Source: Armatimonadota bacterium (GTDB taxonomy: Bacteria; Armatimonadota; Hebobacteria; GCA-020354555; CP070648). Taken from it: a stretch of 64,000 nt of DNA. The DNA is taken from NCBI GenBank assembly GCA_020354555.1, contig CP070648.1, positions 926,913 through 990,912 on the forward strand, read 5' to 3'. Each line of letters starts with the position of its first letter. Within the stretch, counting starts at the first letter, position 1. Positions 12,908 through 54,508 of the stretch are shown in pieces. The notes under the pieces were generated by a model. It had not been told where the DNA came from, did not search any database, and was given only the letters and a program-made list of their open reading frames with translations. The translations under genes and the position numbers were made by a program.

Positions 12908-13026
12908 CTATCGAGGTCCGTGTATTCGGGAAGGACGCAAGAGACGGCGGGGCGCCTCCCAAACGAACCTCGTCCAGAAGAGTCTACGTGTATTACCCGC
13001 GCTGCGGTAATACACGAGACTCTATA
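12908..13026 (+). repeat. Double-hairpin dispersed repeat, copy 1
   Basis: This 119-bp element runs from CTATCGAGG to ACTCTATAA. Hairpin 1 pairs CGAGGTCCG (12912-12920) with CGAACCTCG (12964-12972), one mismatch. Hairpin 2 pairs AGAGTCTACGTGTATTACC (12979-12997) with GGTAATACACGAGACTCT (13006-13023), an 18-bp stem with one bulged A. Two other copies of the same length occur in this window. This copy ends about 5 nt before the def ribosome-binding site, so it forms most of the def leader. Confidence 0.9.
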
Positions 13027-13047
13027 AGTGTTGAGGAATCGTGTGAC

Positions 13048-13617
13048 GTGAACCCTGCGGATGAGATACTATGCTACGGGCATCCCGTGCTCCGCGGCAA
13101 AGCAGAGCCGGTGCAAAAGGTCGACGCTGAGGTCGAGGCGGCGATCGAGCGCATGACCACATGCCTCGAGCGGGCCGGTGGGTTGGGGTTGGCAGCCCCC
13201 CAGATCGGCTCGCGCCTGCGTGTCATCGTCTACGATGTCGGCGACGGCCCGGCGGCAGTCATCAACCCGCGCCTCCAGGACAGCGAGGGCGCCGAAGAGA
13301 GCCTCGAGGGGTGCCTGAGTCTGCCCCGCCTGTTCGGTGATGTGTCGCGCGCTGCTCGCGTTGTCGTCAGGGGCCGCGATGTACGAGGTCGCCCGATCAG
13401 GATTGAGGCGGAGGATATGCTGGCGCGGGTCATCCAGCACGAGATAGACCACCTCGAGGGCGTTCTCTTTGTCGATCGCGTGAACCCGGAAACGCTGCAC
13501 TGGCTGATCGGCAAGGGCGGACAGGATGAGGAGGCCCAACGGGTGCCCACCACCCTCGCGGACGCTCTGAAGGTATTCGAGGCGCGCGTGGCCTCGCGGC
13601 ACCGGGCGGACGGCTGA
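13048..13617 (+). CDS. def: Peptide deformylase
   Basis: The enzyme removes the N-formyl group from nascent proteins. All three metal-site boxes are present: GLAAPQIGS, EGCLSLP with the metal-binding Cys, and QHEIDHLEGVLF with the two His and the catalytic Glu. The GTG at 13048 (189 aa) is chosen because GAGGAA (13034-13039) precedes it at good spacing; the longer open frame only adds translated repeat sequence. fmt follows after 34 nt, giving the usual functional pair. Confidence 0.95.
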   Translation: MNPADEILCYGHPVLRGKAEPVQKVDAEVEAAIERMTTCLERAGGLGLAAPQIGSRLRVIVYDVGDGPAAVINPRLQDSEGAEESLEGCLSLPRLFGDVSRAARVVVRGRDVRGRPIRIEAEDMLARVIQHEIDHLEGVLFVDRVNPETLHWLIGKGGQDEEAQRVPTTLADALKVFEARVASRHRADG

Positions 13618-45977: not shown

Positions 45978-46097
45978 CTATAGAGTCTCGGGTATTACGG
46001 TAGCACCGGCAATACCCGCGGACTCTTCCGGACGAGGTTCGCTTGGGAGGCGCCCCGTGGTCCCTTGCGCCCTTCCCTAACGCGCGAACCTCGATAG
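45978..46097 (-). repeat. Double-hairpin dispersed repeat, copy 3
   Basis: This is a 120-bp inverted copy of the element at 12908. Read on the minus strand it begins CTATCGAGGTTCG and ends ACTCTATAG. Hairpin 1 pairs CGAGGTTCG with CGAACCTCG perfectly. Hairpin 2 has CGGGTATT opposite AATACCCG, where copy 1 has CGTGTATT opposite AATACACG, a compensatory change. Its first 21 bases encode the last residues (LSRFAR) and the stop of the NRAMP-like gene. Confidence 0.9.
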
Positions 46098-47480
46098 GTA
46101 GTCGGGCACCGCGGTGTAGATGAAATAGCCCGCGCTCGACGCCGACGCGACGACTGCGGCAATCATCCCCAGGTTCCACAGCCACGCCCTGGTGCCCACG
46201 GGCTTGGCGTCGCCCATGTACGCCCGGCGGTTGTGCAGCACGAGGAATGCGATGTACGCGATCGGCAGCAGCACGCCGCAGATCGCCGACGTCGGCACCG
46301 CCACCCACAGCAGGTTCTTCCACAACACCGTGCCCAGCATCCCGGGTGCGATGACGAGCGAGGCGAGTCTGTACCGCCACCCGACCGGCTCCCAGTTCAA
46401 CATCTCGCAGATGATGAACGCGCTCGCCAGCATGTGCAGCGTGATCGTGCTCAGCACCATGCCGAGCACGCCGAGGTTGAAGATGACTCGCGCGAAGAAC
46501 GGGCCCGCCAGCGGCGCCAGCGCCTGTGCCGCCGACTTCGCGGGCAGGGATATGCCGGTCGCCGGGATGTCCACCGTGCCCGGCAGCGTGTTGGCGGTGG
46601 CGATGATCATGAGGGATGTCGCCAGGACGAAGGGCAGCAGCATTCCCGTCATCAGGTCAAACCGCGCGAGGCCGCGATAGTTGCGCCCCCACCCGCGCGC
46701 CAGCAGCGTGTACGGGAAGAGGAACGTCATGTTGATTCCCACCGCCGCGCCGAACGCCCCCATCATCACCGAAACCCCGCGCGGGTCGCGCGGGATATGG
46801 AACGTGAAGTACCCGCGCAGCAGCTCGCCCCAATCCCTCACGCCGGTGCGAATGACCACCAGCGCGAAGGAAATGACGATCAACCACACCATGTACCGCA
46901 GCAGCCGCTCATAGAGCCGGATGCCCTTTATGCCGCGACCGTAGCTCCATGTGATGGCGGTCGCCAACACCAGAATGACCAGGCCGACCGGCCACGTCGG
47001 AATGGCGGCCCCCGCTAGGTCGGCCATGTCCTGCACCACCGCTCCCGCCAGCGCATACTGCGGGAAGTGCCAGATCAGAGTCGCCGCGAGCGACCCGAGC
47101 GCCCACGCCCACGCGATGGTCGGATGCACGTACGCTTTCATGGCATCGAACGGCCGCGCCCGCGTGGACAAGGTCTGGTAGGCGATCGCGCTCATCATGA
47201 TGATGCCGAGCAGCATCGCCACCGGCTGCACCCACAGCAGCTGGTAGCCAAACAGCGCCCCGGCGAAGAGCGACGAACCCGCACTGCCCCCGCCCAGCGT
47301 GAGCGCGCTCTGGAGCCAGCCCGGGCCAATGCGCCGCCAGTACCCGGCCCAGCGCGATAACGTCGGCAGGCGCGCCATGCGCTCCAGTTCCGCCTTGTCG
47401 CGCTCCGCGGCTTCGGGATCCAATGCGCGTACCATAGGCAGGCCGCGCTTGAGGTCGGTGCGCTGCTCTTCTTCGGTCAT
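46077..47480 (-). CDS. Divergent NRAMP-like membrane transporter
   Basis: 467 residues with about 11 helices after a 45-residue cytoplasmic N-terminus. The first helix reads GPGWLQSALTLGGGSAGSSL, where NRAMP metal carriers have a DPGN ion-binding motif; helix 6 reads VGINMTFLFPYTLLARGWG instead of the Met-Pro-His type. The overall fold and YSYG-like AITWSYGRGIKGIRLYERLL agree with the NRAMP/APC family, but the metal ligands are lost, so substrate or proton coupling may differ. The ATG at 47480 has GGAGGGTGAG upstream. The C-terminal residues LSRFAR come from a dispersed repeat. Confidence 0.8.
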   Translation of the reverse strand: MTEEEQRTDLKRGLPMVRALDPEAAERDKAELERMARLPTLSRWAGYWRRIGPGWLQSALTLGGGSAGSSLFAGALFGYQLLWVQPVAMLLGIIMMSAIAYQTLSTRARPFDAMKAYVHPTIAWAWALGSLAATLIWHFPQYALAGAVVQDMADLAGAAIPTWPVGLVILVLATAITWSYGRGIKGIRLYERLLRYMVWLIVISFALVVIRTGVRDWGELLRGYFTFHIPRDPRGVSVMMGAFGAAVGINMTFLFPYTLLARGWGRNYRGLARFDLMTGMLLPFVLATSLMIIATANTLPGTVDIPATGISLPAKSAAQALAPLAGPFFARVIFNLGVLGMVLSTITLHMLASAFIICEMLNWEPVGWRYRLASLVIAPGMLGTVLWKNLLWVAVPTSAICGVLLPIAYIAFLVLHNRRAYMGDAKPVGTRAWLWNLGMIAAVVASASSAGYFIYTAVPDYLSRFAR

Positions 47481-52290: not shown

Positions 52291-53451
52291 CTATTCCGTT
52301 TCGAGCACCTTGAGGGCGGCCTCGGCCGTGCGAATCCCGTGGCGCGCCGCCTCGGCGTCCTCGCCGGCCTCGAACTGCTGATAGTACCGCCTCAGGCTTT
52401 GGCGATACGCCGTTGCGGCGTCCGCCGGGCGGTTCTCCTTGTAGTAGAGCCACCCCATTTCCTGATAGACCTCAGGCGAAGCTTGCCCATCATCAGACGT
52501 GACACGCTCGTAGATATCGAGCGCGCCTTTGATATCGCCGTCGAAAAAGCGAACGCGGGCAGCCGTGGGTGTCGGCTCGATGCCGGCCGCCGAATCAGCC
52601 GGCGCCGGTTCGCTCACCGCCTCGGCCGCAGGCACCGTGCCTCGAACGATGAATGCTTCCGGCGTCGGGATGGTAACCGTTACGACCGGCGAGGGCGCGG
52701 CAGTTATCTCAGCCGTCGGGGTTTCCTCCGGCTCCGGTAGCCGCTCCGGCGGCTCAACACGGGCGGGCAGCGCCTCAGGGGCAGTGGGCGCGAAGCCCGG
52801 CGCGCCGGGCACTCCGGCGGTGAGCGGAACCTGCGGCTCAGGTGCAACGGGTTCGGGCGCGGGGTATTCCGGGGCCGGCGCGGCGGTTGCCGCCCGCTGC
52901 TCCTGCACCGGAGCAGTGCCCCAGTTCCGCCACGTCATGACTGCGAGCACCGCGAGAACTGCCGCGCACACGGCGGCGAGCGACCACAGCACGACGTGGG
53001 TCCGCGGCGCGGCGGGCACAGGCGGCGGAGCGGCGGGAGCCGCGGGTATCGTCGCGGGCGCGGGTGCTTCAGGCGGGCGTGCGGCTTCGACCGGCGGGGT
53101 CGGGGGCGAGACCAGTTGCTGAAGGCTTTCGCGATCCGCCACGCTCTCCGGGCTCAGGCGCAAGGCGGTTTCGTACGCTTCTATCGCCTGTTCGCGCTGC
53201 CCGGCCCGCTCGTACAGTATGCCGAGCAGTGAGTAGGCCGACGTGGAATCGCGCTTGACGCTGAGAGCGCGCTTGCACGCGACGATCGCCTCCGCGAGCT
53301 TGCCCTCTTCGCTGAGCCGGAAGGCTTGTTCGAGGAACTGGCGCGCGCGTTCCTCATCGCTGGGTGGGGTGGGGGAGTCGAAGCGGGTGCCGCAGTCCTG
53401 GCAGAATGCGCTGCCGTCGGGGTTCTCGACGTCGCACTTCGGACATCGCAT
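52291..53451 (-). CDS. Zinc-ribbon and TPR protein with membrane helix
   Basis: 386 residues. A zinc ribbon (MRCPKCDVENPDGSAFCQDC) is followed by two or three TPRs (EGKLAEAIVACKRALSVKR, AGQREQAIEAYETALRLSPE), a Pro/Ala-rich linker, one helix (VVLWSLAAVCAAVLAVLAVM), a long low-complexity Pro/Glu/Ala region, and a last TPR (DGDIKGALDIYERVTSDDG). The ATG at 53451 starts exactly at the zinc ribbon. The architecture is typical of membrane-tethered scaffold proteins; the partner is unknown. A double-hairpin repeat lies 16 bp upstream of the start. Confidence 0.8.
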   Translation of the reverse strand: MRCPKCDVENPDGSAFCQDCGTRFDSPTPPSDEERARQFLEQAFRLSEEGKLAEAIVACKRALSVKRDSTSAYSLLGILYERAGQREQAIEAYETALRLSPESVADRESLQQLVSPPTPPVEAARPPEAPAPATIPAAPAAPPPVPAAPRTHVVLWSLAAVCAAVLAVLAVMTWRNWGTAPVQEQRAATAAPAPEYPAPEPVAPEPQVPLTAGVPGAPGFAPTAPEALPARVEPPERLPEPEETPTAEITAAPSPVVTVTIPTPEAFIVRGTVPAAEAVSEPAPADSAAGIEPTPTAARVRFFDGDIKGALDIYERVTSDDGQASPEVYQEMGWLYYKENRPADAATAYRQSLRRYYQQFEAGEDAEAARHGIRTAEAALKVLETE

Positions 53452-53466
53452 GGCGGGCGCCACCTT

Positions 53467-53585
53467 CTATCGAGGTTCGTGTATTGGGCAAGGACACCGC
53501 AGGCGCCGCGGCCGCCCCGAACGAACCTCGTCCGGAAGAGTCTTCGGGTATTAACGGCGCTGCGGTAATACACGAGACTCCATGG
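53467..53585 (+). repeat. Double-hairpin dispersed repeat, copy 2
   Basis: This 119-bp copy lies in the gap between hisG and the zinc-ribbon TPR gene, 16 bp upstream of the TPR start. Hairpin 1 is CGAGGTTCG/CGAACCTCG, perfect. Hairpin 2 pairs AGAGTCTTCGGGTATT with AATACACGAGACTC, an imperfect stem that mixes the bases of copies 1 and 3. Its ends are CTATCGAGG and GACTCCATG. Confidence 0.9.
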
Positions 53586-53638: not shown

Positions 53639-54508
53639 CTACGGTATGACCTTATTCAGCGGATACTCGATGATGTCCTGCGCCCCCGCGCGCTTGAGTT
53701 CGGGGATTAGGTCGCGCACGCGCGCCTCGTCGGCCACGGTCTCGACGGCATGCCATCCCCCGTGCAGCAGCGAAGACACCGTGGGCTCTTTCATGGCGGG
53801 CAGCAACTTGAGTACGGCGTCCAGGTTCTCGTTGCTGACGTTCATCTTGAGCCCGACCTTGGCCTCCGCCTCCAGCGCCCCTTTGAGAAGCACGGCGAGG
53901 TTGTCAACCTTGGCCCGCTTCCAGGTGTCGCCCCAGGCCGCGGGGTTGACGATGAGCTTGGTGTTGGTTTCCAGGATGGTATCAACGATGCGCAGGTTGT
54001 GCGCGCGGAGCGAGCTGCCGGTCTCGGTGAGATCTACGATGGCGTCCGCGACCTCCGGCACCTTGACTTCCGTCGCACCCCATGAGAATTCGACGCGCGC
54101 CTTGACCCCGTGTCGTTCCAGGTATTGCTCGGTGACGCGCACGAGTTCCGTCGCTATGCGCTTGCCCTGCAGGTCGGCGGCGGCATTGATGTCGCTGTCG
54201 TGAGCCACCGCGAGCACCCACCGCGCGGGCGCCGCGCTCTGCTTGGAGTAGATGAGGTCGGCCGCCTCGACGACGTCCGCGCCGCTCTCGAGCACCCAGT
54301 CGAGCCCGGTCAGCCCCGCATCGAGCACTCCGTCCCCGACGTACCGCGGGATTTCCTGCGCCCGGAGCAGCAGGCAGTCGAGTTCCGGGTCGTCAATCGC
54401 AGGCACGTAGGAGCGGGCGGCGATGGTCACATTGTACCCCGCGCGCTTGAAGAGCCTGAAGGTCGCCTCTTGCATGCTGCCGGCCGGCAGCCCCAATCGC
54501 AGCGCCAC
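53639..54508 (-). CDS. hisG: ATP phosphoribosyltransferase, long (self-regulated) form
   Basis: HisG carries out the first step of histidine synthesis, joining ATP and PRPP. The catalytic part shows LRLGLPAGSMQEATFRLFKR, YVGDGVLDAGLTGLDWVLES, and the PRPP-binding DAIVDLTETGSSLRAHNLRI. The C-terminal regulatory domain (residues 215-289) has VSNENLDAVLKLLPAMKEPT and LKRAGAQDIIEYPLNKVIP, the HisG_C ending. The length of 289 indicates the long form, which needs no HisZ. The GTG at 54508 is chosen because it gives MALRLGLP and has AAGGAGG 8 nt upstream. Confidence 0.95.
   Translation of the reverse strand: MALRLGLPAGSMQEATFRLFKRAGYNVTIAARSYVPAIDDPELDCLLLRAQEIPRYVGDGVLDAGLTGLDWVLESGADVVEAADLIYSKQSAAPARWVLAVAHDSDINAAADLQGKRIATELVRVTEQYLERHGVKARVEFSWGATEVKVPEVADAIVDLTETGSSLRAHNLRIVDTILETNTKLIVNPAAWGDTWKRAKVDNLAVLLKGALEAEAKVGLKMNVSNENLDAVLKLLPAMKEPTVSSLLHGGWHAVETVADEARVRDLIPELKRAGAQDIIEYPLNKVIP

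Follow-up and report, generated by a model that had tools for sequence, protein, structure and literature searches.

A dispersed double-hairpin element family in an Armatimonadota genome, best read as TA-type MITEs of two-arm shape

The short double-hairpin elements of this genome are very probably MITEs that insert at TA and were moved in trans by a TA-specific transposase. Directly supported are their dispersal, their conserved ends, a TA duplication, the presence of one nested composite at two unrelated loci, and the conservation of their hairpins. In the mechanism proposed here, a trans-acting transposase would have recognised the imperfect inverted ends of a unit of ~115 bp (the A type) and inserted it at YTAR, with duplication of the central TA; the enzyme, for which no gene was found in the assembly, would probably be of the Tc1/mariner-IS630 kind or of another TA-specific DDE type. 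Either end doubles as an arm of the hairpin formed locally there, so that the inserted element folds into two hairpins with a TCCGGAAGA linker between them. A search of open-access literature yielded no MITE from the little-studied host phylum Armatimonadota.

Copies in the window and in the genome

The window, meaning the whole 64-kb stretch of DNA analysed here, covers positions 926913-990912 of contig CP070648.1; the genome consists of one 4.88-Mb contig with N gaps. The three near-identical elements reported in the window by the first-pass annotation were recovered in the same places with similarity far above chance, and their related ends, two inverted repeats and constant spacing all match that description. 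The matched segments span 12908-13026 (plus strand), 45979-46097 (minus strand) and 53467-53584 (plus strand); each copy is ~120 bp long, counting a conserved purine after the right end. The features, in window coordinates, are as follows.

12908..13027, plus strand: A-type element copy 1, a TA-flanked double-hairpin element read as a MITE, in the priA-def intergenic region
12909..12927, plus strand: left terminal inverted repeat of copy 1, TATCGAGGTCCGTGTATTC (consensus TATCGAGGTTCGTGYATTA), flanking TA included
12912..12973, plus strand: hairpin 1 of copy 1, with outer stem CGAGGTCCGT / ACGAACCTCG and a smaller inner stem
12973..12978, plus strand: conserved inter-hairpin linker of copy 1 (consensus TCCGGA region; TCCAGA in copy 1)
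12979..13024, plus strand: hairpin 2 of copy 1, a ~19-bp stem around CGTGTATTACC / GGTAATACACG, with GAGTC/GACTC at its foot
13008..13026, minus strand: right terminal inverted repeat of copy 1, read on the minus strand as TATAGAGTCTCGTGTATTA, flanking TA included
45978..46097, minus strand: A-type element copy 2, a G-C subfamily member located where a predicted gene has its 3' end
53467..53585, plus strand: A-type element copy 3, whose hairpin 2 is a mismatched G.A intermediate

The right end of copy 1 lies ~20 nt 5' of the def start (GTG at 13048), and the nearest named relatives of the def protein come from Armatimonadetes/Chthonomonas MAGs (44-50% identity), so that the genome most likely represents an Armatimonadota lineage with no near named kin. 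The predicted gene at copy 2 (46077-47480, minus strand) extends into the element with its last 21 nt; copy 3 is flanked by a hisG-like gene (53639-54508, minus strand) and by a gene at 52291-53451 (minus strand). The paired T-A to G-C swap previously noted in hairpin 2 does exist, but it separates copy 1 from copy 2 and not from copy 3: copy 1 carries CGTGTATT/AATACACG and copy 2, on the minus strand, CGGGTATT/AATACCCG, whereas copy 3, with CGGGTATT/AATACACG, is changed on one side only and has a G.A mismatch. The first stem of copy 1 had been given as CGAGGTTCG; copy 1 actually reads CGAGGTCCG, and the stem thus contains one C.A mismatch.

A sequence search with copy 1 (matches down to E ~1e-10) found ~40 distinct copies in the 4.88-Mb genome. 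A covariance model built from 32 copies, the kind of genome-wide search that the first-pass annotation had proposed, yielded further copies as well, with 41 strong places (at least 54 bits) in the same genome and a tail of weaker relatives. The strong places occur on both strands and mostly in unrelated flanks, and the 32 copies have a mean pairwise identity of 81% (range 69-95%). With 119-120 bp and 41 strong places, the element has the short (<200 bp), non-coding and dispersed form of a TA-type MITE. Related B and C types exist beside the A type. The C-type relatives at 356150, 3266150, 2483304, 1345553, 4642190, 1644321 and 63403 have different stems and a hairpin 2 of variable length, and some C-type relatives contain large extra inner stems.

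The family is restricted to one lineage among the genomes searched: the element was absent from 40 relatives in a covariance-model search and from 290 other Armatimonadota genomes by BLAST, including the only genome of the same family in that set. A scan of viral contigs with one exact 21-nt pattern and a BLAST search of plasmids returned no match, and Rfam contained no matching RNA family.

The A copy at 1113674 has lost an internal stretch at an ACGA repeat; it has flanking sequence in common with the A copy at 3793384, which marks a region that was duplicated together with the element inside it. The A copies at 3793384 and 3796446, in the same orientation and 3 kb apart, flank ordinary genes that include an aldo/keto-reductase-like gene; this pair looks like a coincidence and not a compound transposon. 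A second short repeat family (~75-80 bp, ends CCTGGATTATTCAT ... ATGAATAATGCGCGC, 11 matches in the genome) has copies inserted in A elements, at 3591650-3591727 within the A element 3591573-3591765 and at 286966-287038 within the A element 286946-287140; at 663138 and 3912754, A copies apparently lie within longer relatives of this second family.

Ends, target site and mobilising enzyme

The terminal inverted repeats are imperfect and ~19 bp long (TATMGAGKYTCGKGYATTR); the left-end consensus TATCGAGGTTCGTGYATTA and the reversed right end TATAGAGTCTCGKGTATTA are identical at 16 of 19 positions. A search for the inverted-end pattern gave 74 matches versus 8 for the reversed control, and its longer form 109 versus 4. 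The left TA is mostly preceded by C or T (Y), the right TA is followed by G or A (R) in 33 of 36 copies, and direct repeats longer than TA outside the ends were not found above the level of shuffled flanks; this combination points to YTAR as the insertion site, with TA being duplicated.

Further support from within the one genome comes from nested copies. The A-type copy at 1304111 sits inside a C-type element; if it is excised with one TA kept, the host forms an ungapped 109-nt alignment with the C-type element at 356150, whereas blunt excision of the 119-bp unit requires gaps, and the one-TA model outscores the alternatives when six C copies are summed (541 versus at most 528). B-type elements are inserted inside A copies at 2948636, 3623168 and 677561, at the site CAT[TA]GGGAAGG; excision with one TA kept leaves gap-free A hosts of 119, 119 and 118 nt, respectively, and keeping none or both of the TAs introduces gaps. 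Since removal of the insert together with one TA restores gap-free hosts, these nests indicate a 2-bp TA target duplication. Empty sites, which the first-pass annotation had suggested looking for, can be read beside filled ones within this single genome, since members of the family have inserted into each other; the comparison rests on nested copies within this genome and fixes the insertion signature without recourse to a closely related genome. As a caveat, the duplicated TAs have decayed by transitions: the left TA is TG in the B-in-A nests, the right TA is CA in the A-in-C nest, and neither TA copy is intact in the nest at 677561; this decay is a weakness of the duplication evidence.

The nests at 2948636 and 3623168 hold the same 223-bp B-in-A composite in differing flanks; its presence at two unrelated loci suggests that it moved as a unit via its outermost ends, and both nests probably go back to one common B-in-A event. 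A left flank common to 3839753 and 3623168 reflects a local duplication. Insertion into hairpin loops, suggested by the copy at 4546442, is not general (mean 4.5 versus 4.1 in shuffled data, with a shuffled maximum of 4.75).

These observations bear on the alternative that the elements belong to a REP/BIME- or PATE-type system, in which a Y1 (HUH) TnpA/RAYT enzyme would recognise two subterminal hairpins as single-stranded DNA. The two hairpins near the ends at constant spacing would suit such a system, and the genome does contain a Y1_Tnp gene, the only one found, at ~4048600-4049300; this gene, however, is bracketed by inverted repeats of its own (AATTAGGGACAGTCACCTATTT / AAATAGGTGACTGTCCCTATTT) that are unrelated to the double-hairpin element, so that it was rejected as the Y1 partner sought for the family. 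The ends of the double-hairpin element, moreover, are inverted repeats of each other. HUH (Y1) transposition is not known to leave a target duplication, and the nested copies fit a TA duplication of 2 bp. A REP/BIME origin, which the first-pass annotation had offered beside a MITE-like one, is therefore very improbable. The RAYT-like Y1 gene and its AATTAGGGACAGTCACCTATTT / AAATAGGTGACTGTCCCTATTT repeats represent a separate candidate REP system.

The MITE-like part of that earlier description, a dispersed structured family, has held up: it is borne out by ~40 copies with inverted ends and a TA duplication, in one lineage among the genomes searched. Mobilisation by an enzyme encoded elsewhere, as the first-pass annotation had supposed, would suit these features, and no candidate for it was found in the genome. 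Searches for DDE_3 (IS630-type) and DDE_Tnp_1 (IS4/IS5-like) transposases found none in this genome and were positive in control genomes. End-pattern searches of the genome gave no longer element with matching ends among the matches listed, and solo end matches at 1416046, 1848383, 4632005 and 1163655 had no element attached. These searches thus turned up neither an autonomous transposon or cognate transposase to go with the family's ends, nor the IS630 transposase with matching ends that would mark a RUP/IS630-derived MITE. A partner with shared ends is helpful and not required; among such elements it is known only for RUP (PMC2229807). The empty searches for both transposase types and for a longer element suggest that the enzyme was lost, lies in the N gaps, or belongs to another family.

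Hairpins, linker and gene context

Copy 1 folds more stably than shuffled sequences, with z-scores of -4.3 as RNA and -4.9 as DNA. Across the 32 copies, 91.1% of pair cells hold standard pairs, and double changes occur in 24 cells, compared to 12.2 +/- 2.4 after shuffling. The swap pair in hairpin 2 is GC in 16 copies, TA in 12, CG in one, TG in one and GA in two; a neighbour-joining tree requires only ~5 changes at this main covarying pair, which implies that the swap was mostly one subfamily-founding event, with one independent C-G. Covariation within the A type is real but modest. Conservation is highest in the linker TCCGGAAGA (97.4%), followed by the outer hairpin-1 stem (95.5%), the hairpin-2 foot (94.2%) and the hairpin-1 interior (82.2%), and the B and C types retain the two-arm plan and its pairing despite other stem sequences. 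G.T and A.C mismatches are nearly balanced (50 vs. 44), and neither RNA strand is therefore favoured. The hairpin-2 foot GAGTC/GACTC contains GANTC, the CcrM methylation site motif, in the A and B types; the motif is lost in the C type.

Within the reading as TA MITEs, the conservation of the hairpins could have arisen without selection, by template-switch palindrome correction or simply because the copies are young; this possibility bears on the hairpins alone and does not conflict with mobility. The few tree changes at the main covarying pair are consistent with it, and the strand symmetry of the mismatches fits a process at the DNA level; yet the linker, which lies outside the reach of palindrome correction, is the most conserved block, and pairing is retained in B and C types with different stems. 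Unselected conservation of the hairpins is therefore possible but doubtful. The two-arm, linker-joined architecture might instead be part of the mobility signal, with a transposase or host factor recognising hairpins extruded at the TA ends; this is a rather unlikely proposal. If true, it would define a structural class of TA MITE distinct from the single-stem Correia and ERIC elements, and it would point to a way in which CIR elements may have spread.

Gene context was taken from a simple codon-based gene caller, and gene starts are accordingly approximate. Among the 41 strong copies, 19 lie between divergent genes, 15 point toward a next gene of the same direction, six are reversed and one lies between convergent genes; ten right ends are at most 30 nt from a predicted start, for example at a topA-like gene at 4055344 and at def in the window. 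Divergent spacers are longer, so that the 5' bias is real only in part. This preference for 5' gene regions, together with the conserved hairpins and linker, could point to a regulatory RNA leader or DNA site that is kept by selection at each gene and is not mobile. Against this interpretation, the copies occur in both orientations beside unrelated genes, they form nested and composite insertions, the mismatch counts favour neither RNA strand, the longer divergent intergenic regions account for part of the 5' bias, and there is no copy in the other Armatimonadota genomes searched and no Rfam match; a purely regulatory, immobile element is very unlikely.

As mobile TA MITEs, the copies, which are mostly intergenic and 5' of genes, would be transcribed as leader hairpins. 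Their effect on neighbour genes would most likely be neutral, or would involve RNase III and mRNA stability by analogy with Correia and ERIC elements; Correia elements are known to be cut by RNase III and to have promoter effects, and ERIC elements to have effects through RNase E (PMC10969869). The ~40 leader-like hairpins 5' of genes in one genome provide a ready set for expression tests.

Comparison with known elements

Inverted ends, 5'TA termini and target duplications are the usual marks of small bacterial mobile sequences, most of which fold end to end (PMC2229807); the double-hairpin element has all three of these marks. The repeat unit of pneumococcus, RUP, is an IS630-Spn1-related MITE of ~107 bp with ~100 copies (PMC2229807); it resembles the double-hairpin element in its size, intergenic position, inverted repeats at the termini, TA insertion, and habit of landing in other mobile elements. 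In contrast to RUP, whose ends match IS630-Spn1 in the same genome, no DDE_3 transposase was found here, and descriptions of RUP include no pair of linker-joined arms.

The Correia/NEMIS elements of Neisseria (105-155 bp, with TA termini and duplication and stable stem-loops; PMC2229807, PMC10969869) share inverted ends, TA duplication, stable stem-loops and a frequent position just 5' of genes; their contiguous 24-bp ends, however, are longer and base-pair together into a single long stem, and some Correia elements carry promoters and an IHF site, whereas neither sigma-70-like promoters nor terminator-like sites were found around copy 1. ERIC/IRU elements are 127 bp long and intergenic, with TA termini (PMC2229807). 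They share with the double-hairpin element the intergenic location, the TA termini and a conserved structure, but they form one long end-to-end stem-loop. To our knowledge, the ERIC sequence is unrelated to that of the double-hairpin element. REP/BIME sequences with RAYT are likewise dispersed intergenic hairpin pairs; they differ in ends, size and TA duplication, and the Y1 gene of this genome is accompanied by separate repeats.

The CIR elements of Caulobacter and Brucella (Chen and Shapiro 2003, as summarised in PMC2229807) are ~110 bp long, with TA termini, two hairpin arms with a linker, and GANTC sites; they are listed without inverted ends and with duplication and mobility not established. 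The double-hairpin element resembles CIR, as described there, in its size, TA ends, two independent arms with linker, and GANTC; it differs, in a comparison by description only, through its inverted ends and TA duplication, and through the position of GANTC at the stem foot, not in the loop, and its absence from the C type. A two-arm architecture known from CIR is thereby joined to a clear TA-insertion signature. Judging from sequence features, the closest kin would be RUP, Correia and ERIC in mobility and Caulobacter CIR in two-arm shape; the elements are best read as TA-type MITEs that form a new family and resemble CIR in their two-arm shape.
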